From Isoetes taiwanensis (taxonomy: Eukaryota > Streptophyta > Lycopodiopsida > Isoetales > Isoetaceae), in contig JAJEKV010000055.1 of NCBI GenBank assembly GCA_021234155.1, forward strand, positions 3,914,905 through 3,978,904: a DNA stretch of 64,000 bases, read 5' to 3'. Both the position numbers and the translations under genes were made by a program. The stretch's first letter is position 1. Each line of letters begins with the position of its first letter. Positions 11,886 through 36,844 of the stretch are shown here, piece after piece. Below the pieces are notes generated by a model. It did not search any database and had not been told where the DNA came from. It saw only the letters and a program-made list of their open reading frames with translations.

Positions 11886-12002
11886 TTGTGGCATAATCTC
11901 TACACCATTTGAGACTCTACATCATTTGTGGCACCCAATATAATTGTATATATATAAGGATATACTAGTAATGGTACCCAGCCTTGCTGGGCATAAATTA
12001 GG

Positions 12003-13845: not shown

Positions 13846-13861
13846 CAAGATGAAATTTTAG

Positions 13862-14924: not shown

Positions 14925-15259
14925 GGAAGGTTAAATCCATGGCCCAACCACCCGGCGCTCCATCTCACAAGAAACCTCAACATCCTGTCATCTTGGATGA
15001 CTAGGATCCATGGCCGGTCCAAGGGCTCCGGCGAAGATCGCAGATTCCGGGCTGGTGAAAAATCACCTTCCCGGAGGCTTTCCAATCGTCAATCCCGCTC
15101 TCGGCTTTCCCACATCCCGTACCCAAACTCCCGCCTATGAGGTGGAGAGATTAAATGACAAAATATTTACGGTGCATATCCAGAATGACAAAGTTGAGTG
15201 AGAACTCCAAGTTCATTACTGTTCCAAAAACTAAGCATTCTCTTGAATCTACAACAACA

Positions 15260-16512: not shown

Positions 16513-16966
16513 TGCTGGAGATGTCCCTTGGAGGAAGAGGAGGAGGATCATTATCGCTAGAAGGGACACATCGTGCGAAGACGGTCTTGAACTGGCGGAC
16601 CATTGTAACAAGATGGGCTAGAAGAATGGCAACAGTTTTCCACAGAAAATGGCAATATCAAGCAATTTCCCTGCCATTGTTAGAATAAAACATTTTAACA
16701 AAATATGGACCAGAACAAGAAAAAAAGTGCCCACCAAGTTTCTAATAGAAACTCACTTGAGCGAATAGAAAGTCCTTAACGCGGAGATTGGCTTCAAGAT
16801 CAAGCCAGGAGTCGAAGCTCGCTCGAGCGCCACCGGAGGTTCACAAGCGTGAGTTCACAAGGGTGAGTTCACAAGTTCACAATGGTTCGCTCAAAAGAGT
16901 GACTTAAGATCATATATATATTCAAGATTGTTCATTGATGGCACTACGGGCAATATATTCCTTATT

Positions 16967-17503
16967 GGATTTTGCTCCACCGAAAGTCTCGAAAGTGTCA
17001 CGCGGTGGATTTTGCTCCACCGAAAGGATCGCCAAAAGCGCACGGGTCAGGTACGCCCTGCCATCAGGCATGGCCCATGCCCATCAATGTCGCGGACCGT
17101 GACGGTCACGCGACGCCTGGATTCGCCTGGGCAAACCCGCAGGGGGTGGCTGTGCACGCCCGCCATCGCACCGCCCATAAAGTCGCTGCCGTACGGGCCT
17201 GCCGCCCAGGTTTCGCCTGGGAGAAACCCGGTAGGGTGGTCAGGTACCCCCTGCCATCAGGTACCACCGCCCCTGCCAACGTTGCCGTACGGGCCCCAGG
17301 TGGGTTCGCTTGGGCGAACCCGGTAGGGCGCCAAATTCCACTCCCATCCGCTGCAGACATAACTCTGGTTAGGGGTTCGCTTGGGCGAACCCGACAGCAA
17401 TGCCAAGTAAGCAGGCCACCCCCGCCACGTCTTCGACAGGGTTCGCCTGGGCGAATCCGGCGGGTTCGCCTAGGCGAATTTCGGGGTTCGCCTAAGCGAA
17501 CCT
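16967..17503. repeat. GC-rich array of GGTTCGCCTGGGCGAACC hairpins
   Basis: Seven copies of an inverted-repeat unit, core GGGTTCGCCTGGGCGAACCC with compensating changes, lie at 17119-17138, 17209-17229, 17302-17322, 17373-17393, 17439-17458, 17462-17480 and 17483-17502. Each can fold to a stem of about 8 bp with a TGGG, TAGG or TAAG loop. The array is preceded by a perfect 20-bp direct repeat (ggattttgctccaccgaaag) at 16967-16986 and 17007-17026. The spacers are GC-rich, unlike the surrounding AT-rich DNA. Confidence 0.8.
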
Positions 17504-18573
17504 GTTAGACGCTTCAACCGTTTGGGCCATTCAAGCACCGAAGTTAACTCCGGTGCCTCCGCAGTCACGAGCAAGCAGCTTCCCAACGGGGCAGAAGATT
17601 CTAGATTCAGGACAGAGTTAGCATATTTTCAGCTCCATCGGTGCCACCATCGAGCATATCATCATGTATCGAAGCTTCTCCTAGATTGCATACACATTTA
17701 AAAATCTATACATTCTTTGAAAAACTGGGCGAATAGTTCCTGTTTATTTTCATATCTTAACTTTGAAACATATCATTTTTCATTTTGAAATAATTTCCAC
17801 AGCTCTAAAACATAGAATAACCCTCTAATCCTCTTCCTCTTCCTCACTGCTCGAGTCTTCCCCGTCATCTTCTCCACATAACCTCATATTTCGATGTGCA
17901 GATACAGTCCCTAAATATCAAGGGATTTGTAATAATTATAAATGTCAAGAAAGAAGTCATGTACATGAGGTATGTACTTTCGATGAAATCATAATACCAA
18001 GTTAGTCTGCTTGTTATGCTTGACCGAGTTCGCCCAATATTCTCGCAAGAAGATTGGAAAATAAAGATGTCTTTGACTCAAAAGCTTAGCCGGTTGGTCA
18101 AACTCGACCAGCTAGACCCGAATGATAATGGTTTTCATGAGTAGTTCAAATTTATTAACAAAGCAAAGATCACTTACCATCTCTCAAAGTTAACACCATA
18201 CCACTTTGTCACCATCTGTTGGTATAATGATGAGCAACAAAGGATCATTGTACACTCGAAAATTTTTCTCTCACACCTTCAAGGACCGTGATCAGTAGTG
18301 TTATCAAGTGATGGGTGGTTTTTAATTCACATACTCAAAAAGCATGTGGGCTTACACATGTGCCGCATGTACCTCTTCATTGCCCTTCAAACCGCCTCTT
18401 CATTGCCCTTCCATAGCCCTTCATTGCCCTTCAAAAATCATGAGTGTTTTCTATTATATAAAGGATATAATGAGCATATTAGTGATGCAAATGATGATGA
18501 CATAAATTATTTGGTGAAGGTGCTTATATGTGCTGTGATGGTTAAAAAACTGGGTAGGTCAATAAAAAAGTTA

Positions 18574-18686
18574 TCCTGATGCAGTTACCTCATCTAAAAC
18601 AAGTATGCAGCTGTTTTTTAAAAGGACACAGCCTAAGCAGAACAATTGCCATTGTCCCACACTCCAATTTTCACCATCATCTCCAA
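18574..18686 (-). pseudogene. ABCC (MRP) transporter, NBD2 signature/Walker B exon
   Basis: On the minus strand an exon begins after a good acceptor (AAATGCAG) and reads [18 protein letters not shown], then [19 protein letters not shown] and a stop. In ABCC transporters the second nucleotide-binding domain has [11 protein letters not shown] (signature), a helix, then LVLDEATASVD (Walker B and the catalytic Glu). Here VLDE is kept, but the Arg after GQ is Trp and the segment after TAS is frameshifted to a stop. This exon belongs directly after the ABCC exons at 36845-37975. The 18-kb transposon lies between them, 36 bp upstream of this acceptor. The C-terminal exon is not visible downstream. 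Confidence 0.75.
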
Positions 18687-18725
18687 CTGCATTTGCAACT
18701 CATCATGATTAGAGAATAAATAGTA

Positions 18726-18746
18726 GGGTAAAAGCATGCTAGGGTG
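18726..18746 (+). repeat. Left terminal inverted repeat of the 18-kb transposon
   Basis: The 21 bases match the right end at 19 positions. The left 4-bp target duplication AGTA is at 18722-18725. Confidence 0.8.
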
Positions 18747-19230
18747 TCATACATTAGTTCTAAATTCATGTACTATTTTGCACTAGAAACCCGTTTTTTT
18801 ATGTAATTTTGAATGTATGGTAGGAGGCCACGTGCTTGTCGTTATATATTTAAAAAAGGAATATATTTGATTGTTTGTCATCATGACATGAAGTGGCCGA
18901 CGGTTGTTGCGAAATTTTGGGCACAATCACTAGATTCCCTCCGATCCAAGCAAATTCCTCCAATCCATCCGGGCAAGCAAGCAAATTCCTCCAATTTACG
19001 GTCTAAGAATCTAAAACAAAGAAAAGAATTTCAAATTCTTGGCGGATCTTTGCATGCATATCAGTTTTTCATAGTAGTAGTAGTGGCATGGCACAAGAAA
19101 ATCAAAGTATGAAACGAAATTACTCAGCCGATGTCCAAAATGAGGACGGTGATACCGAATCGACAAAGGGAAGCAGAAAATGGTTGAACAAGATACTCTA
19201 AATGACATCTTTGGAATGAAGTGACAGAGA

Positions 19231-22197
19231 GTGATAATCACAACAAAGATGAGAATAGCGATCATATTCCGTGTATTTCACCAAAAAATCGGAAAAGAGC
19301 GTAAAAGGTTGTTGAATGCTTTAGAAATGAAGCCAGTCTCTCTATCTCCCGTGAAAGAGAGGTATTGGTTTCGTGGATCTTGCAAGATAACAGGCTCTTG
19401 GGGTTGTTTAAACTGTGATTGGGCTACCTTCCAGAAGCGGTGGTGAAACATTCATTGTTACAAAATCTCAAAGATGGATTAGAAGAGGTTAAATCTTCTA
19501 ATAGCAAAGTGGACAAGTTGGCGCACCAAGCACTCGCTTTATCCATGATTGTTGGGAAAATGGGGAATTGAAGCAAAAAGGAGTTGCTTCAAAATGTTGA
19601 ACTGCCATCCTCGAATTTGTCATACTGCAGTTGTAAGAAAGAGAATGAAAATTGCAGGTCCAAGTATATGGGCATTAGCAGGCAGAAAGAGAAGATCTGA
19701 TTGTTTGGACGAAGACACAAAGCAATTAGTCATCCAATTTTGGTTAAACAACACCAAGGTTTCACCTAAATACAGGGATGTAAGAAAGAAAAGGCATCAG
19801 TAATCCAGTTTCTTGATATACCACAGGTATTTCATTCTTTACTTTGTGAAATGCTTCTGATCCCTCATGTATATGCTCATTTTTATTGGAATTTATAGTA
19901 TCTTCTTTGTTTTGATGTATGAATGCTTTCTAATGACTGATCTATTATTTATGTATTCACTTTTACTTACTTTTACATATGCAATCACCTTTATTGGTTT
20001 GCTTACATTTATTGACCATGTATATTACACTAAATCTTCCTTTCTTATTTATGCAGTGACTCCAAAATTCTTAAGCAATGTACAGATTAGATATTTGCAT
20101 AATATTGTATGTTATACATGTCTATAGAGTACATATCTTGTACTTTCACTTTCGATAGTGCCTATGGACTTCAAGAATCTACTCTAGAACATTAATATGC
20201 TCTAGGGTACATTAATGTACCCACACTGCTACTTTATCCTTACACACGTATTTAATGTACATGTGTAATGTATATTCTGTTGTCCTTATGTATATTGTAA
20301 GTACATTCTCGAAAGTACATTCTCGAAAGTACATATGAGTGCATATGAGTACATATGAATGCATACGAAAGTACATCCAGAGTACATATTAGTACATTAT
20401 GAGTACATGTTAGTACATTTTGACTCATGTACTCAATTGCACATACAAAATCTTTTATTAACTATGATGATTTGAATGCACAGTGCGAAATTGCACTTTA
20501 AACTTTGTGGAGCAACACCTGTGAGGCACATTGGCATCGATTGTTCAATACCTCAAACCCCGATTGTGTAAGGAAGCTAAAGGAAAGAAACACATGTTGT
20601 TGTGTCAAGCATGAGCAAGCGTGAGAACTTCAGTGAAGGCATTTAATTCTATGAGGGCTAAGCTTCACATCAATTGTAGCTGCAATTGTGAAGTTTGTGC
20701 CGCTAACAAAATGATGGAATTTGTCGCTCACAAGCATACATACCGTAATGTCAAAGACTCTATGGAGGAGTATGGTTTGTCCAAAACAGGATAGTGACGA
20801 GTGGCACAAATTAAATTGTATTACAAGTGATTGCAAGAACTGTGGTAAGCAGAACATTAGCTTGTGTCCAAAAGAAACTGAAAATGACATTGAAAGTAAA
20901 GTCAATTGGCAAATATACTCTTATGTGGATGAGAAGTCTAAAAAGGAGTCTCAAGAAGGCTCGATTGGAGAAGACAACAAATGCACCTGTAATGCCGATG
21001 CCATGTTTGGTCACATGAAGACATTTATCCATCACAACTTTGCAGCCAATCGCAAAGCAAGGAATTCGGCGATGTGTTCAAAACCCGAGATGATTCGTTG
21101 ATATCGCTGGTTGATTTTGCAGAAAAATTATACATTGAAGCCTTTCAAAGAGGTTCACCCAACATTGGAATGCGATCAAGTTACTATAATGGTACGACAT
21201 TACCATGTCAAGGTAAATGGCATCTTGAAGAAGATCGTTCACTTGTATATTTCTGATGACGTAAATCATGATACACATTTTGTACAACATGCATTTAAGC
21301 TTCATCTAAAATGGCTGAAAGAGAATGGTGGATCTCATGTACGATCATATTGTGTGGTCTCGATGGTCGTGCCGCACAATACAAGTCCGTAAGAAATTCA
21401 TATTTCATTACCGTGTACTATGTTGAATATGGCATTCGCTTACAATGGAACTACTTTGGTTCGGGCATGGAAAAGGTGAACATGATGGAGAGTCCCGCCA
21501 AGGCCAAGGTGTACTTGCAAACTAATGCCCCTAAGCTTTGGTAGAACATGGAACGTAGATTAGAGGTGCACATGATGCTTGTGTTGTCTTGAGGAGCAAG
21601 CAATCTAATGTTGACAGAGTATACCGGGAAGTGAAGGAGTCGATATTGATAGAACCAATGCATTGATGTGCAACCTCTTCCCCGGTATTCAAATTGCATG
21701 CTATAGCTTCTATAAGTCCAACTCGACCCCACCTTAGTAATGGTGAGACCATTATCTTGCTTCAATGCTTGCATTAACTTTGAATGGGATGCTTGTGAGT
21801 CCATTTCATTCCGTGGAAGTGGCAATTAAAGAAGCTAGTACCCCGAGTAAGTACTCATTGTGAAGTAGAGAATGAGGAAATCACCGCTTTTGCAAATGAA
21901 AATGAAGAGCTAGAAGATCTAGTACATGTAGGTGATATGTTTGCTTCTTTTGCTGCACCAGAAAATGAAGAAAAATGTGCCATACTATATCCTTCTTTGC
22001 AAGAAAACAAAATTTGTTTTGCGGAAAATGTTATTGACGATTACAAAAATTATCACCATAAGTGTGAAACAAATATATCCGCAGATTACTATCAAAATTG
22101 CCCGGTTGTCACCACAAGTATAAGTTATTGGATGACAAAGAAGTTCTTGTACCGCAGAGTCCAATTATTGGAGCAAAGTTTGCAATGCCAAAAGTAA
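19231..22197 (+). pseudogene. DDE-like transposase, frameshifted
   Basis: Pieces in three frames line up as one protein of an uncharacterised transposon family known from early land plants and animals. In order: a basic N-terminal part (19549-19803) with KRRSDCLDEDTKQLVIQFWL and VSPKYRDVRKKR; an intron with AGTACAT repeats; a Cys-rich part (about 20632-21060) with CSCNCEVCAANK and CITSDCKNCGKQNISLC; then the likely catalytic core. The core reads SLISLVDFAEKLYIEAF, frameshifts to CDQVTIMVRHYHV and YISDDVNHDTHFVQHAF, then frameshifts again to DGRAAQYKSVRN and WNYFGSGMEK. In the family I expect VDFAEN (first acidic residue), WSDG..QFKS (second) and FFGSGHGKG. Here the His of SGHGK is Met. A tail at about 21857-22197 (ENEELEDLVHVGDMFASF) is acidic. 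At least two frameshifts make it inactive. Confidence 0.6.
20279..20420 (+). repeat. AGTACATT-type repeat cluster, left
   Basis: About ten copies of (g)agtacatt/agtacatatgagt, including an exact doublet of acattctcgaaagt. It lies in the apparent intron of the transposase gene. A cluster of the same word in the opposite orientation (aatgtact) is at 34540-34700, in an intron of the convergent gene of the same transposon. Confidence 0.6.
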
Positions 22198-22474
22198 ATC
22201 ATAAGGTGAAGGGTGCTTCAAGTAGCCTTATGCATTGTCTAACATGTGCATGAGATGCTACCGAAGTCTCACTTTGAAATGCTACATGATCCGAATAGCT
22301 TGAACAGATTATATGTTGGACAGATTATATGTTGGAGAGAAATCTGAAAAGAGAAAAGTGCAGGAGTAACATGATTTATATTACATTGTAATTGAGTACA
22401 TCAACTTATTTCAAAACATGTTTCTTGTTATTGATAACTTTATAGAATATATCAACTTCTTTTATGCCTAACTA

Positions 22475-22798
22475 TTACATCCCTCGTGGTGGCTGAAATC
22501 TCATAGGTATTGCATCCATTCTCCTAAGATTTCCTGAGCCATATAATGTTAGGACTAGCCGTGGGCGCAGGCCATCGCTACTTCTCTTGCAATTGGAAGC
22601 CCACTCCACCTCCACGCTTGTGCAAGTAGCTTGACTCGCGGCAAGATTTGGCAACCGATTCCTTCCCAAGGATCGATCATAGATCTTGTGAATTGCCCAA
22701 AGTATTGTTAGCATCTCATCCCTGGTGCTTCTGTCTTCGATCTGTTCGACCTGTTCCCATAATCCAGGCAGGCTGGTAAGGAATCTTGCTTCATACAT
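22475..22798 (-). CDS. Probable 3' exon of the Ulp1-like gene, unknown domain
   Basis: The 107-codon frame begins YEARFLTSLPGLWEQVEQIE and continues DEMLTILWAIHKIYDRSLGR. Varied composition and predicted helices look like true coding sequence. It lies downstream, on the same strand, of the Ulp1 domain at 24.1-24.7 kb and ends about 280 bp from the end of the convergent transposase, so it is probably the C-terminal exon of the second transposon gene. I recognise no family. The stretch 22.8-24.1 kb between them shows only short frames. Confidence 0.3.
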   Translation of the reverse strand: MYEARFLTSLPGLWEQVEQIEDRSTRDEMLTILWAIHKIYDRSLGRNRLPNLAASQATCTSVEVEWASNCKRSSDGLRPRLVLTLYGSGNLRRMDAIPMRFQPPRGM

Positions 22799-24103
22799 TA
22801 AGCCACAAGAGAATGGTACATCTGAAACATATTCTGCTTCAGTCCCTAAAGTAGAAGGTGGTTCATCCGTTCAACCTCTGCTCCATGTACATGTACAAGT
22901 TCCTTTTGTTCTGGTTCAACCTCTGCTCCATGTATAAATTCCTCTTCAATTTCATTTTCCTCAACTTCTAATCCAATAACAAAAGTTAAAAATTATTAGC
23001 ATTTTAAATCTAAAACTTCCTCAACCTTAAATATTAATAATAGATATAATTTAACAAGTACTCAAAAGAGTTATGAAAGCAAATAAACATCAAGAAAAGT
23101 TACAGTAAAACAGATTCAGTTTATCAAAGGCATTGTACATAGGGCCTTTATTCTGTTCATATCTTCGCCGTATTCATCCACTATAGTCTTGATGATAATG
23201 TCACCATATATGTCCCAAGAGTCATCCAACTTATGCTCCTTTATGTAATTGGTAAAATCGGTGCATATTTCAACCCTACCAACCAATCAAATAAGAAGGA
23301 CGATGGTTGTCGCGTTCTATCAAAGGTGTCCATAGTGTGCAAACTTTCTTTGTTGAAAAGAGCTTTGTGCTTAGACTCAAACACACCACGTAGACCATTT
23401 GTATTTAGGATATTCAATGACAATACTATCCATAGGTACTACTTGAGGGGTTACACCAACCTAATTTGTGTAAGGAAGTCCCCAACATCTCTTTTTCCAT
23501 AAACATGTTTAAATTTTGGGATGCCATCTTCATAGAGCTTGTCCAAAATTGATGTTATGATATCTAAGGTAAGAGTTGACCATATGGCCAAATCCCAATG
23601 AAAGGAGGCATATTGAAGCATTGCTTTCATTGTTGGTCCAAGAGAGAAAACTCCATGTTCGTAATTATGGGCTTGTAAGAGGAAATATTCATTTCCCGGA
23701 GTTCTATAAAAGTAACCCGAACACCTTGGATCTCAAATATTAGAGTCCTATAAGGAAGCAAAATATAATTAACATACAAGTAGCACTAGGATTGCAACCA
23801 TTCATTGATTACATTATCAAGATTACATAAAGCCAAATGGCTTAGTGTTGTTTCCAATAAGAAAAAAGCCAATTGGCCTCATTTGATAAAGAGTTATGAA
23901 AGAAGTTAAAAAGCTTCCTGAGGTGCTAGTAGTGCCTGCTTCATTGAGATGGCTCTTATAATTAATCATAGCCTTAATGAGCACATGTCTCCCCGGACTG
24001 CATACTCAAGATCAAACCAATCTCAAGAGAATCAAAGAATGAAAACAAATAGTTTTCGGAATTAAATATTATATAAAAAGCAATTGTGTATATGTTATCT
24101 CAC

Positions 24104-24702
24104 CATGCTCTTAGCCTGCACCTGGGCTTCCACAAAGGCTTGCATATAAGCCATGACATAAAGACCACAGGAAGCCAGGTCACCTTGTTGTGGAACCTCA
24201 GGTCTAATTTCTTTCTCTCGACTGAATTCTTTTACATAAATATCAATCTTACGAGAACCGAATTAGTCAATCTTTGAATGATATCTTTATGAAGCCCGCA
24301 ATAGAAAATAACATCAGAACTATGAAGCATTACACTCAATTAATAGTGAGTGCACTTACATCATAACCATCCTCGTGTTGACCTGCACATTCTTTAGCGA
24401 GTTCAGAATAAGGATAGCTGGAGAAGACAAAGGGGTGCTGCTACAGTTCTTGGCCTTATCTAAAACAATGATGACTAGTGCATGGTGCATAGGATCCTCA
24501 ATCCGGATTGGAATCATAATATAATCGGCATTTGCTCAATATGATTCCCCGGCCCTTTTTGAACTACAACCAATCCGCATCGTACCATCGGGTTGCATCG
24601 GATGACCAGTTTGTTAAAGGCCGCTTGAGTAGGCTAAGAAATTCTCACGAAGGGAAGAAAAAAAATGCATCACGCCATTTGTCGCATAATGCTAATCGAT
24701 AC
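24104..24702 (-). pseudogene. Ulp1/C48-family cysteine protease domain
   Basis: Ulp1 proteases cleave SUMO-like modifiers with a His-Asp-(Gln)-Cys centre. Three exon-like pieces give the domain in order. 24531-24702 reads LALCDKWRDAFFFFPS, then WYDADW and FKKGRGII, with two in-frame stops. 24360-24530 reads ADYIMIPIRIEDPMHHALVI and AILILNSLKN; HHALVII is the catalytic-His strand (usually HW.L..I) and LILNSL replaces LILDSL, so the catalytic Asp is Asn. 24104-24247 reads IRPEVPQQGDLASCGLYVM and AYMQAF, with the Gln and the catalytic Cys in QQGDLASCG. Donors GTAAGTG and GTGAGAT follow the last two exons. Stops, a frameshift and Asp-to-Asn mean it is dead. Such proteases are also carried by some plant Mutator-like elements. 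Confidence 0.7.
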
Positions 24703-25100
24703 CTATTCACAAAGAAAGTGAGGTTAGATGTTCAAGAGTTAACCATAATGCCTTCCAAATAGTTACCTTCCAAATATATCTATATGCACATAGACATGTG
24801 TCTGTCTCTGCAAAGACCTTCCACACAATATTTAGTCACTTTGATTAGAGGCTTTTGCTGGAAAGGGTAGCATGGAACTATTTTCAACAAGCTCTCCGGG
24901 TCTCGTAAAAAACAGACTTGCATTATTGAGAGACAAATGAATTGCAACTACAATGTAATCTTACTTACTCTCCCCTGTCTTTGTCATCTCCGTGATCGAG
25001 CACTTTCGGATGATGTTTGGCTTCTAGTCCTGCAGAAGTCATCATAAAATTGTTCAGATATTACACTTCAAAAGCTTCAATTAACATAATAAATATTCAC

Positions 25101-25539
25101 CTTTTTGTTGAAGTTGTATTTTGCATGCACTCCTTCCTTTTTCTTGTCTGCTTCTCATGTTTAACAACCTTGGTCTCCTCAACCTTGGTTTCCTCTATGT
25201 CATCAACCTTAGTGGCCTCAACCTTTGTTTCCTCAACCTTTGTTTCCTCAACCCTGGTTTCCTCCACTGCCACATCATCCTTTTGGATCTCTTGTACCTC
25301 CACCATCCTCTATCTTTTCAATGGTTGCCTGAACAAAGGCTCAGAAGATTCACCAATTTCCAACACTTCTGCATAAATTAGTCACCAAAGTCAATCAGTA
25401 TTGTGGATCCTAATTTTAAGTTAATGGTATACCTGTTGAATCATCAGTCAACAGCATTTGAATTTCCTTGAAATGATGGCATTGGCTTAATAGGTTTCCA
25501 AATTGGTTTCTCCGAAATTTGTATTGTGAAGAAAGCCCC
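25101..25539 (-). pseudogene. Two exons upstream of the Ulp1 domain, with VEETK repeats
   Basis: Exon 25101-25368 is bounded by TTATGCAG and AAG|GTGAAT. It holds VLEIGESSEPLFRQPLKR, a TAG stop, then MVEVQEIQKDD and five or six near-copies of VEETK before a basic KQTRKRKE. Exon 25433-25539 (CTGCAG acceptor, CAG|GTATAC donor) reads open in one frame as SSQYKFRRNQFGNLLSQCHH and FKEIQMLLTDDST. A further small exon is likely at about 24980-25025 (LEAKHHPKVLDHGDDKDRG, donor GTAAGTAAG). These precede the protease domain, as in plant transposon Ulp1 proteins with long charged N-termini. Confidence 0.45.
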
Positions 25540-25799
25540 TGCAGACTGGAACTTTATCTTGTGAAGAAAAAACTTGAAGAACCTACAAAAATGGTGTTTA
25601 ATAATTGCGGTACACACAAGCAAAAAAAGAAGATGCAACATACCGCGGTATTAACTCATAATTTAACTTTTCAACCTCTCACGATAATCCACAAATGTTC
25701 GAATCGGTATGCTCGTGGCTATATGGAATTCCAAGTGACATATCAAGCTCATATGACATGAAAATTAAATTCCAGGGATTGTAAATCAATCAAATGTGA

Positions 25800-25819
25800 T
25801 TTTTTTTTTTTTTTTTTTT
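25800..25819 (-). other. LINE poly(A) tail
   Basis: Twenty consecutive T on the plus strand, adjoining the candidate target duplication AATGTGAT at 25793-25800. Confidence 0.85.
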
Positions 25820-26066
25820 GGAGGTAAGATTAGATATATGTATTAATATAAAGCATTATGTACAATGAGACCCACTCGGATGTTATGGGGACCACAAAGA
25901 TGTGTACTACGAGAGAGCATCGCCTCCGCCTTCCCTACTTTAGGGGTACTATAGGGAGTCGCCCATCTTCACCATAAAGCAGGTACTATAGAGGGAAGCA
26001 GCTCCGTTCCACTATTGGGTCCTCAAAACATTCTCAATTCTGAATAGATGGGATTCCTCGCCTATG

Positions 26067-26720
26067 TCATTCCCCGCCTTCATTATCATCCCAATGGCAC
26101 TTAAAATAAAAAGTAGAACCCCTCAGAAGGAACCGAAGTCTATCAAGACCCTTGTTGTAGTTAATTCCATGCTTCCTATGATGTGATAGCGCCATCAGTG
26201 CTACTTCTGAGTTGAAAGAGTTCTTTAGCTTCACTATGGAGATCCCTTGGCCACCTAGTGCCACATCACATCGGTGTTTCCAGATGACCCATATCGCAAT
26301 ATTCACCAAGGAGGCTTCGACATCGCGCACCTATCGCTGATCGATAAATCCGCCATCTTAGATGGTGTATCATCAGCCCAATGATGGGGCAAACCCGCAA
26401 TACGTAACTCGCGATCCGGGGCAAAAGAGGAGGTGTCCAATAGATTCAGTGGTATGGCAACCAAGTGGACATCTATCATTGTCCAGAATACCTTTATTGA
26501 ATAAACTTTCCTTTGTACTGAGCCCTCCTTGTAAAGCTGTCCACCTAAAGAATTGTATCTTTCTTGAACAAAGCGACTTCCAGGAGTTGGCTAAAACAGC
26601 TTTGGCAACTCCATTGCTCACCCCAAGCCTTGCCTCAGCTATCAGAGGAGTATCTACACATAGTCCTCGATAGATTCTTGCCACACTATACTGCATGTCC
26701 ATCAACCCGCCATTCCTCAC
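26067..26720 (-). pseudogene. LINE ORF2, C-terminal zf-RVT region
   Basis: The frame at 26373-26720 contains WKSLCSRKIQFFRWTALQGG, LSTKESLFNKGIL, DRCPLGCHTTESIGHLLFCP. This is the zinc-binding domain (zf-RVT) found at the end of plant LINE ORF2 proteins, with the C-x3-C...H-x3-C-type arrangement. A second frame at 26067-26330 (VNIAIWVIWKHRCDVALGGQ, SHHRKHGINYNKGLDRLRF) is the C-terminal tail, where plant LINEs typically read W..WK.RN. The two frames are offset, so at least one frameshift separates them. 25820-26066 is the 3' untranslated region. Confidence 0.65.
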
Positions 26721-28675
26721 AAGGCCCCACTGTTCCAGTTAGGTTGGTGACTTTGCCTAATATCTCTCGTAGCACCTTACAAATTACCTTCGCTGGGGTT
26801 CTGATTTTACTCTTGAATGTAGTCCAACAGACCCATTTCCCATTCATCCACAGATGTTGCAACCTAGTGATTCCACAGCTCTTCCATTTAATGAAGATGC
26901 GGGGGTGAGAGAGGGCCAGAGGAAGACCCTCCCTCCCCCATATCCTAGTATTCCAGAATAAACTGAAGCCACCTGCTTCCCTAGGAGGATCCATAGGAAC
27001 AAAAAGGTGTTGCACATCCAAACACGCTTTGGAGAATCTTTCTCATCACAGAGATGTACCGGGGGCTACTTTGAAACTAAAGTAGAATGCTCCCAATTCA
27101 TCTCCTCGAGAGCCGGCTTTCCCAAGAGCTTACCTTGCTTCAACCAATAGGATACAAATTTTAAAGCAGGTGATAAAGCAGATGACTCACCTTGTAGTAC
27201 TCTCCAAACAAATTTAGCCGCCAGTGGCTCAGGTTCGAAAGTGAAGGGTCTTTGCAGCCCAATCCCCTCCCTTTTGTCCCGGACACGCGCCTCCTCCTGT
27301 GCCACCTTAGCCATGCCACCCCAAATGAATTTCCCCGATGATAGTTTGCATTTGATTGTAAACCCCTTTCGGGCAATCATCGCTGATGAGTAATAAATAT
27401 GAGAGGCAGCTAGCACTGCATTAGCCACTGTCACCCGACCAGATGTTGCCAAGGTCTTTGTGGACCATAGGCCTACCTTCTTTCTGAGTTTATCCATTAT
27501 GGGGGTCCGTAGGCCTTTGAGGTTGTCGAAAGCACCGTGGGAAGACCCGTGAGCTTAATGCATTCTCCAAACGCTACTACCGAAAACCCGCACTCGCCCC
27601 CGAGGATCAATGGGACTATCCAAGCCCCGAGAACTACACACTTATTGGCATTAAGGCCGATACCCGTATATAACCTCAAAGGACGAAGAATATCTCGAAA
27701 AGAGTGGAAACTGTTGTCATCATATCTGAGGAACATGAAGGTATCATCTGCATATTGCATAATTGTTAGCTTTTCTGTACCTCCAGGAAAGGTAAGCCCT
27801 TCCAGATCTCCCACTAACATCTTTAGCTGAACCATTCTTGTCAATAGGTTGGCCATGATGAGGAATAAGTAGGAGCGAGGGGCAGCCCCCGCCTAATCCC
27901 CTTCTTGAGTTTAAACAGGCGACGGTTGTCCATTAACCAGACCGACGCAGCTAAGTTATTCATCCCCAAAGCCAACCAATAAAGTGGAGCTCAAAACTCA
28001 TATGGGACATGACCGAGCTTAACCCTTCCCATCCGAGAGAGTCATATGCCTTTCTAAAGTCCATCTTAATCATTACACAATTTTGTTTGGAGGCTCGCAC
28101 CAATGCGCCCTTCCTGGCCGCAAGATAGTTATCCAATATGTATTCACCCTCGCAAGAAAGCTGATTGCTCATGCCCACCACCCCTGCTCGTAATTGGTTT
28201 CAAGCGTTAGCAATAGCCTTCATGATTACCTTATAGATGACATTGGTGAGTGCGATAGGGCCTCCATTCCCCTAGGCTTTGAGGTCTTGGGACCTTCTAA
28301 CAAGAGTGATAAACCCTGGCCGCTAATGATGGGTGTAGAGAGCATGACATCCATGCTCCACAAACAGCTCGATGAAGTCCGCCCAAGCACATCCCAAAAT
28401 TCAACAAAGAATTCTGGAGGAAAACCATCCGCCCAGAGATTTCCTCGCCGCAAGGGAGCATAAGGTTTTGTAGATCTCATCCCCTCTATGTTACGTAGTA
28501 ACAACCTATTTTTCTCGGGTAACCTTCTCCCCCAATCCACTTTAGTTAGCCAAAGATGCCAACCGAAAGCATGGTAAGAGGAAGGTATAGGATCTTCCTT
28601 AAATTGATTCTCAAAGCTTTCCCTAATAAATGATCTGATCTCCTCGTGGTTCCTCCAATACATTTGAATTGCCAT
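26686..28675 (-). pseudogene. LINE ORF2, reverse transcriptase domain, frameshifted
   Basis: Successive minus-strand frames give the reverse transcriptase in order. 28226-28675: WADGFPPEFFVEFWDVLG, the N-terminal 'DGFP..F' segment. 27960-28181: CVMIKMDFRKAYDSLGWEGL, motif A with its catalytic Asp. 27497-27856: TIMQYADDTFMFL, the YADD active site, then the thumb with LNANKCVVLG. 27066-27497: LRKKVGLWSTKTLATSGRVT, the conserved region after the thumb (KL..WK.K.LS.AGR). 26686-27021: GGFSLFWNTRIWGREGLPLA, linking to the zf-RVT. Each step changes frame or has lost a piece, so at least four disablements are visible. Confidence 0.8.
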
Positions 28676-28774
28676 CCTTAATCGATGAGATACTATTATC
28701 GCCTAACCTAGCACCCGCCATTCTAAAAAAAACATTTGAGTTCTCATGGTCAAGTTAAGCATACCACTTAGTTT

Positions 28775-29855
28775 TTAGAGAACAGCCGCCCCTCTAGCCT
28801 CCTCCTCCTCAATTGCCTTTGCTTTCCCTTCCAGCTCTGCCTCAATGTTCTGTTTGGCAATGTTGTGTGGATCAGATAATAAGTCCTGCTTAACTATTCT
28901 CAACTGATTGTATATATCCATCTTTTCCTTTTTGAACTCCTTGGCTCTGCTCTTTCCCCACACTTTAGCCCAGGCCTTCATTAGGCTGAGCTTCTCCACC
29001 CAGGCTTTCATGCTTAGAGGATTAAGATCATTAGAGAGAGAGGAAATAAATACCCTAAAAGGCTTGCAAAATGCCTCCTTTCCTAGCCACGAGGTATTGA
29101 ATTTGAAAGGGATATTTCCTCGCTTGCCAGTAGAAGGCATGTTTTCAAGAAATAAGCTTTGGGGAACATGATCAGAGTGGGAGAAGGCAAGTTCCCCCTC
29201 AACATAACACTTATCCATGAAGCATGCTGTTTTATTGGCCATATAAAATCTGTCTAATAGACAATATACTCGGTCTTGGCCCTTCTGCTTATTCGACCAT
29301 GAGAAGGTAGCATTGGAGGGCGGAATCAAATTAAATCCCACACTATCAAGCAAAGAGTTCCAAGAAGTATCCTCATCTCCTGATAGATTTCTATGCAACC
29401 CAATTTTTTGGTCCCACACATCGGTCATGTTCAGATCTCCCCCTAAAATCCAGTTTTCGGTGACATCCCCTTGGTGACCTATCCAGCTTTCAATTTCTTT
29501 CCACATCGCGGCCCTTTCTGCAGGCTTATTTGACGCATATACATTGATGACCCCCCATTGGCACTCATTAGATTCAAAGGTCACCACCTGCCATCGACCA
29601 TCCCCAGCAGCATAGTAGGACTTCTGAACAAGGCCTCTCCAGAGGATACAGGTGCCACCTTTAGTTCCCCTGGCTGCACAGCTAAAGGAGGAGTAGTTGC
29701 CTCCTATCCATTTGCCTATAGAACTTGCTTCGAAGTCAGGAAGTCTATGTTCCTGTAAGAGAATAACATCTGCCATCATAGAGCGTATGGCGGCAAGCAC
29801 TCTACCACGCTTGAATGCCTTTAATACCTCTGAGGTTCCAGGATACAATTTTCAT
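28775..29855 (-). CDS. LINE ORF2, apurinic-type endonuclease domain
   Basis: The endonuclease nicks target DNA to prime reverse transcription. ORF2 probably starts at 29855 with MKIVSWNLRGIKG, the usual opening of plant LINE endonucleases. A one-base frame change near 29825 shifts into the long frame that continues to 28775. That frame shows ILLQEHRLPDF (catalytic Glu), GGDLNMTDVWD (Asp/Asn), DRFYM, and SDHVPQSL (catalytic Asp-His). The domain is about 230 residues, followed by a basic helical linker (KAWAKVWGKSRAKEFKKEK). All catalytic residues I can check are present, so this part decayed least. Confidence 0.8.
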
Positions 29856-31479
29856 AGTATATAGTATAATAACCTCTCGACAAGACGGCGGTGCTGCATC
29901 AGAATGATACAAAAATTCCTTGCACATGGGCCATCTGAACCAACATAAATACGACCTATATATATGGGAATGTATTTCCCCAGTGGTCTCAGTCGGTCCC
30001 TCTGACAGAGGGCAGAGGATATATGACCATCCCTTTTTCTCAAGGCGATCCCCCCACCAAAGATATCTTTATAAGTGGCCCCCATCCCTAACACTTTCTA
30101 GGTGTGTTATTGCACCCATACTTAAAATGAGTGGCTCACCACCCCTTGCACCCCTTAGGTGTTTAGTTTGCAATACCCTATAATTAATAGCTGCCACCCC
30201 CTCCTGACCAACACAATTTCTAGTCACATACGTCAAAAAATGTGGCCCTATATAGGTTCTTGCTATGACTTCTTGTATCGAGGTAGATACCTCCAGGGTT
30301 GTGGAAAGGTTTAGTTTGTCCTTTCCTCATCACCAAAGCTTTAATTTGTCTTTCCCTTTCCTTATTAGAAGGGATACATGGAAGGATACCCATACCCCTT
30401 CGTAATACTCCAATGTATAAACATCCCACTCCCACTTGATCACACCACTTCTTAGTTAAACATTTGTACCACAATGATCCTAACCTGGAATGTGTGTAAG
30501 TAGCCCAAGTACCACTGGTACTAGCCCAATATTGTACAAATGACCAGGTATTGGGGTTCCAAGGTGGACTTAACCCGGATAATATGCCATGCCACTTAGC
30601 TACCCAAGTGGTGGATTTGTTATCCCCTGTTGGTAAGGGTGTTAGTATGCTTGGCATACTATAATGCCCCCCCCATCACCTTCCCTAGTTGACCCCTCAA
30701 CCCAATCTTTTTTTTAAATCTCAACCCTCCCATCAGGCAAGTTATTCCTGCCCCCCCCAATCGACTTCAATAGTTGACCCCCATCCAAATTATTTTTTTT
30801 AACCAACCCTCCCAACATAACTGATATTATAAAGTGGCCCCCACTAACTTCCGTGACCCTCTCTAAGCTTGTCCACATGTTTTGAAACATGGAATATGAT
30901 CCCCTGTTTTTATGAGTGAGAGCAGGGAGAAGTTGGCCAGTCCCATACCATGAATGTAGCACCAAATAATTAGGAGTTGCCATATATTTCCCATACCCCT
31001 GTTAGTTGTCTTAGATTCTTGGGATTGGCAATAACAAAGAGCACTTAATTCCTTCCTTAAATTCATAACCAGATCCTTTGTGTCAAAAGTTAAACTATAG
31101 ATCATAAAGAGTTCCATTAAACTGCCGATATGTAGAACATTATCCAAATACAAAATAGTCAGCCCTGGCTGGAAAATGGGCTCGATCCTTAACATTGTGT
31201 GTAGATCTAAGCTTCAATCTACATCCCAGGTCCCGGTACAGGCCAGAATTGTTGCCTTTTCTGCTACATTTACCTATTCTGATACATTTACCTTTTCTTG
31301 TACAATATGATAAACAGAGATATTTGCCTTTTGTAGTACTATTGTCTTTTCTGATACAACATACAAAACAGAGAACTATGGTGCAGCTAGAAGCCTCGAG
31401 CAGGAGAAGAACTAACCTCTGATTTTTAAACACCATGGAGATCAGCCGAACTCGAGATCTGCTTACACAGCAGCCCAGA
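29856..31479 (-). other. 1.6-kb spacer between LINE ORF1 and ORF2
   Basis: Plant L1 elements usually have ORF1 and ORF2 close together, so this length is unusual. Minus-strand frames exist (30220-30657, 145 codons; 30863-31195) but show no domain I recognise. The plus strand is rich in C runs. Two or more copies of an approximately 85-bp unit (C-run, cttc--tagttgaccccc, T-run, aaccctccca) lie at about 30664-30740 and 30753-30825. It may be an insertion or an expanded inter-ORF spacer. Confidence 0.4.
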
Positions 31480-32841
31480 TCATCCCTTTTTCTTGGAGGT
31501 ATCATCTATGGAGTGATCCAAGAGTACCTTTGCAATGGCAGATTCGAATTCACGATTGCAGATTTTCTTCCCATTAGGTTTTTTTACCTTCTTTAGACGG
31601 GCCTCATCTAGAGGCTTGTCGCTCTGATCTTCAGAGGCAGCAACTTCAACCTCCAAGTTTAGAGGTCTGCAACCATCGGAAGTGGAGAGGACCTTCCCAT
31701 TACCAATCGAACTTGCAGAGGCAGCCTCAAATCGGGCTTGCAAAAGCTGGACGCCTTGAAGAAGTAGTTGCTTAGGGGAAGGGGGAACATCAGCAACAGA
31801 TATATGGCTAGCAGTGAGAGAGTCTCCAGCCAATGAGCAGGCGTAGAAATAGAAGGCTCCGGCCGGCAAAGATCTATGATCCGGAGCAACTTCGGAAGGA
31901 TAGTCACTTCTCCAGGGGGAGGAAGGGCCAGCTCGGCAGGGGGAGATGGGCATGGGACCAGGTAATAGAGCCTCGCTCTTATCATTTGAAGCAGAAAGAG
32001 GGTCAGGGCACAAGAGGGGCTGTTGTTCCTCGATTACAGCAGATATGACCTTGGGATCTTCAACGACCTTCACCTTCACTTTGGCAGCCTTTGATACCGC
32101 ACCACCGTTTCTCGGTTTATTACGGGCTCTTACCAAGATAAAGCCTTCTTCATCCACTGTCTTGCCTTTCTCTACCTCTGCACTTACTGTCTCGGCCATA
32201 ACAGGTGGGCAAACTTCCCCAGCATGCACCAGGGAACCGCAGGTAGAACAAGGCAAGGGCAAGCCAGAAACTTGTAGTTTAAACTCAATGAGCTCGCTGT
32301 TAAAACCTTTGAAAAACAGTGCTTGAGGAAGCGGATTGAAGATGTTGACGGAGACACAGATTTTAGGGGGCTCGTTGGGAGAGCCACCCATGCAAACAAA
32401 CTCGCCTAGAGCAGAAGAGATGATCTTGAAGGCCTTTTCTGTCCAGAACTCACAACTGAGGTTAGAAAGAGACAACCAGATTGGGAAGAAAAGGGCATCA
32501 GGGCTCTTAGCATTAAAATTTGGCCTCCACCGCTGAAAAAGGATCTGCCCATGAAGGCATGTGATGACGCCCTTCTTGAAAATGAGGTCTGCTTCCCTTT
32601 CACTTGGGAAGGTGACAAGAAAATACAGATTACCAAGAGGCTGGACCCTGGGCAGAACACGGCCTCGAGATGCCCGCTCCAAAGCTTTTTTAATTTCCTG
32701 AAGAGATGGATTACCTCTGATTACCTTAGCAATAAGACCAAGGTTATCAAGGTGGCGAATCCTATTCGCCACCTCAGGGATATGAAGAGAAAGGGAAACT
32801 TTGTCCTCCATATCCTCGGACAAAGACAGGGCCTTATCCAT
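31480..32841 (-). CDS. LINE ORF1, DUF4283/zinc-knuckle RNA-binding protein
   Basis: ORF1 proteins coat LINE RNA. The open frame extends up to 32928, but I place the start at the internal Met (MDKALSLSEDMEDKVSLSLH, 32841), because the first 29 codons overlap the upstream frame and look unlike a start. Residues about 20-190 match plant LINE/gag-like DUF4283 proteins: IAKVIRGNPSL, NLYFLVTFPSEREADLIFKK, ILFQRWRPNFN and LPIWL-like FFPIWLSLSN. A CX2CX4HX4C zinc knuckle follows (CSTCGSLVHAGEVC). The C-terminal third is low in motifs and Lys-rich at the end (KKVKKPNGKK). The frame is intact. Confidence 0.75.
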   Translation of the reverse strand: MDKALSLSEDMEDKVSLSLHIPEVANRIRHLDNLGLIAKVIRGNPSLQEIKKALERASRGRVLPRVQPLGNLYFLVTFPSEREADLIFKKGVITCLHGQILFQRWRPNFNAKSPDALFFPIWLSLSNLSCEFWTEKAFKIISSALGEFVCMGGSPNEPPKICVSVNIFNPLPQALFFKGFNSELIEFKLQVSGLPLPCSTCGSLVHAGEVCPPVMAETVSAEVEKGKTVDEEGFILVRARNKPRNGGAVSKAAKVKVKVVEDPKVISAVIEEQQPLLCPDPLSASNDKSEALLPGPMPISPCRAGPSSPWRSDYPSEVAPDHRSLPAGAFYFYACSLAGDSLTASHISVADVPPSPKQLLLQGVQLLQARFEAASASSIGNGKVLSTSDGCRPLNLEVEVAASEDQSDKPLDEARLKKVKKPNGKKICNREFESAIAKVLLDHSIDDTSKKKG

Positions 32842-33646
32842 AAAACTCAAGCCAGTAGAGGCTGGCTTGCCAAGTGCAGGTAACAAGGACAGACTGAGTT
32901 GGTTCAACAGCTTGGTCTCCAAAAACAAGCTGTCTCACTTGCCTTCTGATTTGAAATGGGTCCCCTCTGATAGCAAGCCCGCCTGTGCAGTTGAACTGGT
33001 CGGGGAAGAGAAATCTATTATCAATGATCGAGGCCCAGAGCTGATCAACGGGGCCTTGGACAAAGCCCCACCAGATAAATTCAGTATTAACTAAGAAGGC
33101 TGATCTGACGATAAAAAGAGGGCCTTGCGGGAATGACGAGTCCTGGTGAGATACTGAAGATGATGAGAAAGGCTGGGGGGACTCTGAAAATGCAGCTTCT
33201 GAGATTTGAGGGCTGGAATCAGAAGAGAGCAATAGATACTCCATGAGCAGAACACATTAAACTCTATAAAGTTCTAGAGTAACAAAATCAGTAAGCTGGT
33301 CTGAATATATTAAGAACTTTGCCTTTGGGGGGCGATCTGATCCGAGATAGGCAATTCTTAGCTCAATAGAGGAAGCTAAGGTGTTGCTAGTAGGTCCGGA
33401 TTGCTCTCCAATGAAGAAAATATCAGGGAAGACTGATTCGTCCACAAGGAATGCCCAGAGATCCACAGGAGATCCCTCCAGCCAGCCACAACAGATTTGG
33501 TCCAAGTTGTAGAAGATGACAAAGTATTTAGTTGAATCTGTCACAGGAGAACTTGGAGATGGAATGGCAGTATTGGACGATGGATTAGAGGCACTAGCTT
33601 CAGAGCAGATCAAAGCTAAAAAGGCGTTGGTAACCCCATTGAACAT
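32834..33646 (-). CDS. Two related frames in the LINE 5' region
   Basis: Two adjacent frames upstream of ORF1 (33257-33646, 129 codons; 32834-33244, 136 codons) resemble each other. One reads CCGWLEGSPVDLWAFLVDES then VFPDIFFIGE. The other reads FIWWGFVQGPVDQLWASIID then FLFPDQFN. Both end in a similar basic stretch followed by GD or GSD (RIAYLGSD, RQLVFGDQ). They appear to be a tandem duplication of one small domain of about 60 residues (pattern W...PVD-LWA...D...FPD-F). I do not know this domain. They may be an extra ORF of this LINE or a divided N-terminal extension of ORF1. 33656-34189 would be the 5' untranslated region. Confidence 0.45.
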
Positions 33647-33944
33647 TTTGAAGCTTTATATGAAAAAGGAGCAAAAAGCTTCATGCGGGGAGAGAGAGAG
33701 CTTCTGACGGGGAATGGATGATTCTTTGCAATGAGATAATAGAAAAACATTGATTGAAGATAAAGAGGGTGATTGCATGGAACCAGATATACAAAAAGAC
33801 CACTGATTGAGAGCCTTTATAATGGCAACTGCTGCCACTGCTGCAAGAGCTGCAATCCTTCCATATCTTTTAAGTAATCATGAAAAAGTCATGGTCAAGG
33901 GGAGTGTATTCTTGCCCTGATTCAACCTTCCCCTGCAACCCGAA

Positions 33945-34045
33945 TCCAGTGTCCCCTTCTACAAGGGGACCGACAGCATAAACTAAAACCTAACTCAATG
34001 AAAGGGACCGATCCAAGGGTCCCCTTCTACACAAGGGGACCGGCA
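33945..34045. repeat. Repeated hairpin at the LINE 5' end
   Basis: GTCCCCTTCTACAAGGGGAC (about 33952-33971) and a near copy with two extra bases, GTCCCCTTCTACACAAGGGGAC (about 34020-34041), can each form a 7-bp stem. Three AATAGCGCC(C/T)AA units follow at about 34130-34170. Confidence 0.65.
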
Positions 34046-34207
34046 AGAATCCACAAGAACGACCGGCCACCGACCTTCATTTCGGGAGGAAAGGATTTCG
34101 AGCAGAGTTTTTTATGAGAGCAGCCGCCCAAAATAGCGCCCAAAATAGCGCCTAACCAAAATAGCGCCTAACATCTCGACTTCGAATTCAATGTGATATT
34201 TACTTAC

Positions 34208-34364
34208 ATGTATCCGAGGACTTCACTGGTACCTCAAGCTCTTCCTCAAAAGACTTTACAAGGTTTACAGGTGATGCCCATGTAGAAGTATTTCCCAAAT
34301 CCTCCTGACCTTCTGTCAAATCCAATACCTTGGAAGAAAGTGCTTTTGTTGGCTTCTTTAACAT
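34208..34364 (-). CDS. Exon of the Ulp1-like transposon gene, LINE in the next intron
   Basis: An open exon bounded by TTGTAG and a strong donor GTAAGTAAA reads LKKPTKALSSKVLDLTEGQE then NTSTWASPVNLVKSFEEELE. It is charged and probably disordered. It lies on the minus strand between the coiled-coil frames at 35.1-36.3 kb and the protease exons at 25.5-24.1 kb. The LINE begins about 10 bp after the donor, so the 8.4-kb gap is explained by that insertion. Confidence 0.5.
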
Positions 34365-34539
34365 CTACAATAAAGAGTAGAAAAAGACTTGAGATAAGAA
34401 AAGGAATATGCATGATTAACAAGACTACAGTATCATACCCTTTTCTGGTTTCCTTATGCTACCAAAATCACCTGCATCAGTCAAACATTGAGTATATCAG
34501 ATCATCAACTAAGAAATGTATTCTCAATGTACTCTACAA

Positions 34540-34700
34540 GTACAGTCAATGAAAAAATTAACTGACAATGTACTCCAATGTATCCATCTGATAATGTACT
34601 CTGATTTATCATGTAAATGTATCCAATGTACTGTTGAAATGTACTGAATGTACTCTGAAATGCATTGTTCTGAAGTACAATCAATGTAAACAAAGCTAGC
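34540..34700 (-). repeat. AGTACATT-type repeat cluster, right
   Basis: Nine or so copies of aatgtact/aatgtatc on the plus strand, that is agtacatt on the minus strand, in an intron. It mirrors the cluster at 20279-20420, so the word points inward from both sides of the transposon. Confidence 0.55.
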
Positions 34701-35080
34701 TGATATTGTACTTTGCCCACTCGATGAGTCATGAAGTATTCAATAATAACTCAAAATGTAATTTTGACAGCAACAATAGCAATGTATCTGTCAATTGCTA
34801 CACTATACAGTTCTCAATAACAAGTAATTAGCTACCTACATTACTGAGCTGATGAGCACATGAAATTAAAAACTCTCATCTTTAAAAATAAGTAGTCTAT
34901 TTGGCAGATTATACATGACTGAACCCACATTATCCAACTACAAAAACTATGTATCTAAATACTCAATGTAAATGCAAGCCTAAAACCTTCATGCAAAAAA
35001 GAATCTAACTATTAAAATAAGAAAAGAAATTGTAAATTAAATGTACATCTACTAACCTTTTGTTGCAAGCAGTCCAAGTG

Positions 35081-36331
35081 CTACAGGCAAATTGCTATTC
35101 CATGAGCAGTCAGGATCAACACATGAAATCTTTGTGCTAGCAAGATAGGATATACACAACAGACAATAAGGGTGTCTGCAGGGTGCCATAGAACCACTGG
35201 ATTCACACCAAAAAGATTGCTCACAATATGTACATGAAGAAAAAGGCCAACAATAATCTGATCTGCAAGAATTGTAGACTGGAGAGGAGGGGGCTGTAAA
35301 GTAAGGATCGAGGAATGTTCTAAAAATTCCCTGAGTTCCATAATTTTTTTGTCTCCTGCCTCAGCTGAGCTCATATCAACAGATGTAGCTTCAATCTTTG
35401 CATCTACATGTTTCAATTCGGTAAGATTCATGTCAATATGTTTCTGGAGCTCAGCCTGATCCTGCATTCTTGATTCCTTTTGCTCGATAGCATCCTCAAC
35501 TTTCCATTTTAGGTGCTGAAATCTTATGGCACTTTCAGATGTTTGGTCCAGTTTTGATTGTTGATCCTCCAATGCTGCCATTTTTGCTTCAACATTCCTC
35601 TGCTTTCTTCGACCAACCCGATATATAACCGCTTCTCTCTCCCCTTCCTTGTGCTTCAATGTATCAAGGATCTCTTTGCCTTCTTTCCTTTAACTCGCTT
35701 AATTTCTTTTTAAAGATGTTTTCACAATAGATCTGCTGTCTAAGAAGTTACTGAAAACTTCTAATTGCTCCTTTGTGTAACTCTTAGCTGAAGTTCTTGG
35801 GGCTTTTGCATTTGCATTGCTAGATTTCACTGTCACCACCTCACTAGATAGATCCGAATCCTTTTGCTTCGATCTGGCCCATGCTTTGACATCTTCCCAG
35901 TCCACTTCTGCACCTTTCAGATGCAATGCAAATGCCCTTGCAAAGTACAGAGGGACATAGTGATTCATAACATCTTTTCTTCCAAAAGCAAACTCATACC
36001 ATTTGCAGAATTCTTCTGTCCACTTCATATCAATTCAGTCATCCTTATAGCCATACCTGCTTGGTGCTTCATCACCCCATATCTCTCTTACCATAGCATC
36101 ATACTTTGCCAGTAAACATCACAAAAATTCAGTTATTCCGAGTCTTCACGTAAAACCCGTATCATCGTGGTAAAATTTCCCTTTTGGCATGCGAACTTGA
36201 AGCTTTCTTATTTGCTTGGAGGCTTTCCTATCCTTGGAGACTTTCTTGAACCCTTGATTGGCGTCTTCTTTGGGGTCTTTGCCATGTTTACGCGACTGCG
36301 AAAATGAACAAAGCAACAAATTTGATTTCAT
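35081..36331 (-). CDS. N-terminal exons of the Ulp1-like gene, coiled coil
   Basis: Three minus-strand frames in order. 36146-36331: basic, KDRKASKQIRKLQVRMPKGK. 35699-36028: KWTEEFCKWYEFAFGRKDVM, then LYFARAFALHLKGAEVDWED and VKAWARSKQK, a compact W-rich segment. 35081-35659: a long coiled coil (AKMAALEDQQSKLDQTSESA, EDAIEQKESRMQDQAELQKH, LTELKHVDAKIEATSVDM), after which the frame turns hydrophobic and is probably intron from about 35300 down. I recognise no named domain. The order (basic, W-rich, coiled coil, disordered, protease) suggests one multi-exon gene, split by the LINE. Exon borders are approximate. Confidence 0.5.
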
Positions 36332-36784
36332 AAGATAAATTTGCCCTCAAATATTTGAACATCGGGACCAGTAAACCAAACGCATTGTTTATATTCATGT
36401 TATACCTACATCGATTTAGCTTGAAAAATACCGCTTTTCAATTTTTAATCCATAGAACCAGTTCTGTTACTTCTTGAATTCATTTTCTGGACCGAAATCA
36501 CGTAAAAATTAAAACTACAAAATAAAGAAAACAAAACTTACAGGGCAGATCACACGGATATGCAGTGTTCCGAGCCGGTTCAAACGTTCTTAGCGGTGCC
36601 AATTTTCAGAAAACAAACCAATTCTTGCTCCACTCGGTTAGCCAAGAAACAGGGGGAACAAAATGAAGGGAATTTTTGGTACACTCGAATAATGACATTT
36701 TCTTTAATGATGGCAATCAAAAACTTGCTATAATTAAAATACATAACGTTATATGTAATGTTTTCGAATGGCCCTTTTTTTTAT

Positions 36785-36805
36785 CACCCTAGCGTGCTTA
36801 TACCC
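36785..36805 (-). repeat. Right terminal inverted repeat of the 18-kb transposon
   Basis: CACCCTAGCGTGCTTATACC plus a final C, the inverted partner of 18726-18746. The AGTA target duplication follows at 36806-36809. Confidence 0.8.
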
Positions 36806-36844
36806 AGTATAACCAAGATCATCAAAGGCATGAAGAAGTTTTAC

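Follow-up and report, generated by a model that had tools for sequence, protein, structure and literature searches.

What kind of mobile element interrupts an ABCC transporter gene of Isoetes taiwanensis, and what might its second gene do for it? We analysed a window of 64,000 nucleotides, the whole stretch under study (assembly GCA_021234155.1, contig JAJEKV010000055.1, forward strand, positions 3,914,905 to 3,978,904). A preliminary description of it, made from the letters, had proposed an undescribed-looking 18-kb transposon with GGGT ends, an AGTA duplication and two convergent genes, one for a DDE-like transposase and one for an Ulp1-like protein. The element was inserted as a unit: it has inverted ends and a 4-bp duplication, and its two genes recur in one geometry. 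We consider it likely that the window holds a damaged copy from a group of autonomous, Sola-like cut-and-paste transposons with an apparently undescribed accessory protein that aids transposition.

The insertion is delimited by the following features, given in window positions:

18722 to 18725, no strand: left copy of the target site duplication, AGTA, present once in two paralogous empty sites.
36806 to 36809, no strand: right copy of the target site duplication, AGTA, again single in the empty sites.
18726 to 36805, no strand: transposon, 18,080 bp in the window, about 9.7 kb minus a nested long interspersed nuclear element (LINE).
18726 to 18745, plus strand: left terminal inverted repeat GGGTAAAAGCATGCTAGGGT, which starts with GGGT.
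36786 to 36805, minus strand: right terminal inverted repeat GGGTATAAGCACGCTAGGGT (minus-strand reading), identical to the left one at 18 of 20 positions; it ends with ACCC.

The window flanks were fused via one AGTA and run against the host genome, and two paralogous ABCC stretches crossed the junction with one AGTA (C1078:6073982-6074444, 91%; C1062:4208679-4209138, 90%). These single-AGTA sites bound the insertion to the base. A further clean empty site was found for the flank of copy L005, whose repeat family occurs element-free in L052; the flanks of L006, L007 and L020/21, which are gapped or repetitive close to the junction, were excluded. On either side of the transposon the host exons follow the order of a minus-strand ABCC gene. 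The right-hand exon matched positions 21-87 of the Pfam model ABC_tran and the left-hand piece positions 101-137, both with scores slightly below the cut-off, and in the PDB the right-hand exon matched ABCC chains, the best being ABC transporter C family member 13 (E 2e-22).

The same termini were found in other copies. Each 600-base end was searched against the host genome (1.66 Gb), and the matches scored were the best 40 of 224 rough candidates for the left end and the best 40 of 162 for the right end, 90-100% alike. On the left, where the first element base is query base 5, 37 of the 39 other scored matches begin at base 3-5, the outliers starting at bases 1 and 18; on the right, where the last element base is 596, all 39 stop at base 593-598 of 600. 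Nine copies were retrieved whole, thirteen as end pairs and five as right ends only. One end pair (L026/L027) had no recognisable left end, and the duplication was counted over 22 both-ended copies, the window copy included. An exact 4-bp duplication flanks 20 of them and a 5-bp duplication none, while in the remaining two the flanks differ by one base. Since the end pair L028/L029 is the L005 locus again, 19 exact duplications are independent; no clear target motif was seen in these (41% G+C, e.g. AGGG, GTCC, CCCA). Two copies, at C1100:16699131-16708920 and C1100:17077017-17095218, have common flanks and the common duplication GGAA, which points to segmental duplication after insertion. The preliminary description was thus accurate about the boundaries, the length of the duplication and the flanking ABCC exons in their right order, and the checks that it had named, namely the ends of other copies and the empty sites (two at the window locus and one clean case elsewhere), gave concordant results.

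The size of 18 kb that it had given to the element is misleading because a LINE of 8.4 kb is nested in the window copy of 18.1 kb:

25801 to 34189, minus strand: nested LINE, left edge approximate, with a T-run (minus-strand poly-A) at 25800-25819 and AATGTGAT flanking both sides; it does not belong to the transposon.

This block (element bases 7080-15464) is unmatched in the other copies and holds, on the minus strand, frames judged by eye to be of the LINE endonuclease type and reverse-transcriptase-like. Of the nine whole copies the shortest is 6.1 kb; two reach 8.9-9.1 kb and the other six 9.6-9.7 kb. Eight of the nine and the window copy are 92-97% identical to one another.

The plus-strand gene encodes the putative transposase:

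19088 to 19826, plus strand: exon 1, broken in the window, ends CCACAG/GTATTT; mapped from the family consensus and copy L041.
20485 to 22295, plus strand: exon 2, which holds the catalytic core and is broken in the window, start approximate; mapped from the consensus, L041 and L042.
21095 to 21131, plus strand: motif of the first catalytic D, by conservation (VVDFAENY in better copies).
21355 to 21388, plus strand: motif of the second catalytic D, WSDGCAAQYKS, by conservation.
21466 to 21492, plus strand: motif of the third catalytic D, HGKGEHDG, by conservation.

The window's open reading frames (ORFs) are too broken to be of use against Pfam, and the searches therefore relied on other copies in the host genome. 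Exon 1 is open for 294 codons and exon 2 for 620 codons in L041, exon 2 for 629 codons in L042, and the consensus has splice signals, GT past exon 1 and AG ahead of exon 2. A genome search with the exon-2 protein gave 11,400 rough candidates, the best 106 places of which (111 match rows, about three dozen of them stop-free) range in identity from 96% to 50%; the transposase group is abundant and diverse in the host genome. The core reads VVDFxENY, WSDGCAAQ[YF]KS and HGKGxHDG, with D-to-D gaps of 83 and 40 residues. In 26 transposases the first and second D are each conserved in 25; the third motif is unreadable in three rows and keeps its D in 22 of the 23 others, while the residue that follows varies (E in 15, Q in 6, H in 1, G in 1). 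This pattern fits a D-D-D triad, and the E of HDGE was dropped as the third catalytic residue, since other residues can take its place.

When the consensus and six transposases were compared with Pfam, and six members with NCBIfam, nothing in the transposase scored above cut-off, and the PDB gave no significant match by sequence or profile. Pfam includes models for the KDZ, CACTA, hAT, PIF/Harbinger and piggyBac transposases, none of which matched the consensus or any of the six. We judged two matches below cut-off to be due to chance, one to the Pro-kumamolisin profile (E 0.0038, two of the six members) and one to NCBIfam NF010215 (E 0.002, four of the six, 18.5 bits against a cut-off of 86). 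No relatives were found in the prokaryote and viral collections with two pattern sets per collection.

The second gene lies on the minus strand, where the order from the right end inward is coiled coil/RING-like, charged segment, Ulp1/C48, phosphatase and conserved ORF:

35055 to 36285, minus strand: first exon, encoding the coiled coil and, at 35154-35234, the RING-like finger; its inner end is approximate.
24143 to 24490, minus strand: Ulp1/C48 protease-like exons, His motif at 24455-24490, Cys motif PQQGDLASCG at 24143-24196.
23119 to 23732, minus strand: FCP1/NIF-type phosphatase-like exon, broken in the window.
22487 to 22867, minus strand: extra conserved ORF LPGLWE...GW[ST]GLPIARE, either the last exon of the second gene or a small third gene.

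The Ulp1/C48 model PF02902 (cut-off 20.7 bits) was matched by family C, a related family, with 41 bits (E 2.6e-10) and by L003 with 30.8 bits (E 3.3e-7), the scoring sequence being in each case two exon pieces joined. For the phosphatase model PF03031 (cut-off 21.8 bits), three lineages scored above it, with 51.8 in L067 (E 9.4e-14), 46.8 in K_C1048 (E 3.4e-12) and 37.3 in Q_C1068 (E 2.8e-9), and the main-family consensus scored exactly at the cut-off. L067 covers profile positions 1-159 of 160, a near-full match to FCP1/SCP/UBLCP1-type phosphatases, which are here transposon-borne and stand beside Ulp1-type exons; the closest PDB chain to the phosphatase exon is that of UBLCP1 (3shq, E 0.021). 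All Pfam RING models remained below cut-off (best 24.7 bits versus 27 in Q_C1068, E 1.8e-5; 0.0026 for the consensus), and we therefore call the finger RING-like only. Both convergent genes of the preliminary description are present, though broken in the window copy. Its DDE-like transposase of an uncharacterised family is borne out as a DDE/D-type enzyme with no match in the curated families searched (Pfam, NCBIfam); its multi-exon coiled-coil gene with an Ulp1/C48 domain is strengthened by the PF02902 match, but the phosphatase exon and the RING-like finger had been missed.

We then considered whether the two genes stay together outside the window family. A phosphatase exon lies downstream of the transposase, on the opposite strand and within 15 kb, at no fewer than 31 of the 106 transposase places, and in any other arrangement at none among the matches listed. 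With the same geometry and distance, the coiled coil was found at 15 places or more (one otherwise, among the matches listed) and the C48 exons at nine or more (none otherwise, among the matches listed). The chance expectation for such an arrangement is 0.1-0.25% per place, and about 0.25% for the phosphatase. The relative arrangement of the two genes is fixed wherever they are found together, and the Ulp1-bearing gene does travel with the transposase, as the preliminary description had supposed. Seven further elements were retrieved around transposases 54-74% like that of the window family. Families A (8,827 bp) and C (8,988 bp) have ends of the GGGTA...AGGGT kind and exact duplications, CACT and TGTT, respectively; one end is visible in B, D and K_C1048, and none in E_C1068. 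Lineages whose transposases differ by 40-50% in sequence still have the phosphatase exon on the strand opposite the transposase, and the coiled coil is present in families A, B and C. Both genes are under purifying selection between families where this is measurable: the transposase gives a ratio of nonsynonymous to synonymous rates (dN/dS) of 0.06-0.18 (7 of 15 pairs, 8 being saturated), the coiled-coil exon one of 0.18-0.21 (2 of 4 long-enough pairs, 2 being saturated) and the Ulp1 exon one of 0.18 (one long-enough pair, 76 codons).

Where does such a group belong? Superfamily lists are available (PMC10045372, PMC9587614, PMC10294476; these papers and those cited below are represented by the accessible parts of their text). 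Sola elements have a DDD transposase and 4-bp duplications, are mostly 2-9 kb long with some above 15 kb, and are present in moss and seemingly uncommon in flowering plants (PMC10741241). Compared by description rather than by sequence, the Isoetes element resembles them in its 4-bp duplication (20 of 22 exact, and the empty sites), its short inverted ends and its triad. Its transposase of about 850 amino acids is near the 888 of one family of Sola2, which in Dictyostelium and Polysphondylium has 12-21-bp ends and AT-rich duplications AWWT (PMC3627910). A second gene, with its Ulp1 and phosphatase exons, sets the Isoetes element apart from Sola, and we found no report joining Sola, Ulp1 and a transposon in a literature search that was thin on subscription papers. 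The group is probably a Sola-type lineage, a label set by the match in triad and duplication length and not by kinship with Sola sequences.

Several observations weigh against a Sola-like element with an accessory protein. The label itself is drawn from shared description rather than sequence comparison, and conservation is the one basis of the D-D-D triad. The AT-rich AWWT preference reported for Dictyostelium Sola2 (PMC3627910) is not seen in the Isoetes duplications. Both ends with a duplication were found in only two of the seven further elements, and Q_C1068 has both ends with unlike flanks (TACG/CTCC). At 75 of the 106 transposase places there is no phosphatase match among the matches listed, and the sole pair measured for the phosphatase exon, within one family, has a near-neutral dN/dS of 0.88. 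The family-A Ulp1, family-C phosphatase and family-C RING fragments had no Pfam score above cut-off. The Ulp1 exons of L053 (family A, ILNSL) and L058 (family C, ILNPL) have Asn at the position where SUMO proteases usually have an active-site Asp. That the exons of the second gene form one protein is most likely, judging from strand, order and short gaps rather than from a single transcript.

Other readings were weighed against the same data. The preliminary description had taken an Ulp1 gene with a 4-bp duplication for an unknown combination; this pairing is not new alone, because Ginger1 joins 4-bp duplications with an Ulp1 domain in several Hydra families (PMC2836005). A Ginger-type element would account for that likeness. 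However, Ginger1 has TGTNR ends, CCGG or CCGT targets and an integrase-like DDE transposase, and its Ulp1 domain is fused to the transposase; the extra domains named in the accessible text are OTU, Ulp1 and PHD, with phosphatase not among them (PMC2836005). The Isoetes element has GGGT ends, none of its 19 duplications is CCGG, CCGT or ACGG, its PF02902 exons lie on the strand opposite the transposase and not inside it, and no Pfam integrase matched the consensus or any of the six transposases. Ulp1 is also known in plant Mutator elements (PMC2836005), and a Mutator-like element would likewise be a plant DNA transposon with an Ulp1 gene. Mutator-like duplications measure 7-12 bp (PMC10741241), not the 4 bp seen here, and no Pfam Mutator transposase matched. 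On duplication, ends and models we rejected both identities, leaving a very slight chance to the first and a slighter one still to the second.

A more serious alternative, although in our opinion unlikely, is a superfamily of its own, that is a non-Sola DDD transposase lineage with its own accessory protein. The lack of Pfam or NCBIfam matches above cut-off and of significant PDB matches, the failure to find prokaryotic or viral relatives under the patterns used, the duplications devoid of AT-rich preference and the literature result given above would all agree with it. Against it, the DDD triad and the 4-bp duplication, the pair of Sola features open to testing, are both present. We also take it that animal proteins have the same HGKG..DG core and that the transposase is probably known to sequence databases, and we counted this against a separate superfamily. 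Plant transposons capture genes, which speaks for the second gene having been taken up from the host as cargo that plays no part in transposition. This appears improbable given the opposite-strand phosphatase exon kept across distant lineages, the coiled coil shared by families A, B and C and the purifying selection between families on the coiled-coil and Ulp1 exons. Selection maintains the second gene wherever it could be measured, and from family to family the gene accompanies the transposase; a role in transposition is therefore most likely.

Some further features of the element and its surroundings were noted. GTACAT arrays spaced about 10 bp apart occur in the transposase intron (consensus 1531-1667, window about 20250-20450) and, inverted, within an intron of the second gene (consensus 7457-7579, window about 34540-34700). 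Counted on both strands, GTACAT hexamers number 34 versus 6.9 expected in the consensus, 27 versus 6.1 in Q_C1068, 21 versus 5.4 in part of B, 12 versus 4.8 in C and 10 versus 7.2 in A; these arrays are possible binding sites. At L061/L062 (C1068:8989117-9003217), several long open frames lie downstream of a related transposase (8029-11165, minus-strand-oriented) and are perhaps another mobile element. A high-copy repeat adjoins the insertion at 18426-18577 (36 scored matches, 95-98% identity over about its length), and at 16853-17508, left of the transposon, both strands carry long, overlapping open frames with a high proline and arginine content.

Returning to the Sola-like element with an accessory protein, the triad would suggest catalysis and the kind of ends a cut-and-paste mode. 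In this mechanism the two-exon DDD transposase, RNase-H-like, would bind the GGGTA...AGGGT ends of about 20 bp, excise the element and join it to the target across a 4-bp stagger, the repair of which would leave the 4-bp duplication. The opposite-strand protein would serve transposition, and our best guess is that it may do so by removing SUMO and phosphate groups, either on the transposase or on silencing factors of the host. Searches of the literature, thin on subscription papers, found no report of a transposon with an NLI interacting factor (FCP1-type) phosphatase, nor did one for a novel superfamily with a 4-bp target site duplication and GGG ends; the pairing of SUMO-protease-like and phosphatase-like parts in a transposon gene is apparently undescribed in the literature searched. 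Tentatively, at less than an even chance, the group could form either a superfamily or a deep-branching plant lineage of Sola, in which a conserved RING-like, SUMO-protease-like and carboxy-terminal-domain-phosphatase-like regulator lets the element alter SUMO and phosphate marks in order to move or to escape silencing.

Annotators gain from these results the ends, the rule for the duplication and the motifs by which to recognise a group that numbers about 11,400 rough candidates in a single genome and whose transposase was recognised by no Pfam model here. They also bear on why some transposons keep Ulp1 genes. In this group the Ulp1 exons are tied to an FCP1-type phosphatase and a RING-like finger, and so one can now ask by experiment whether the second protein aids transposition or defeats silencing.

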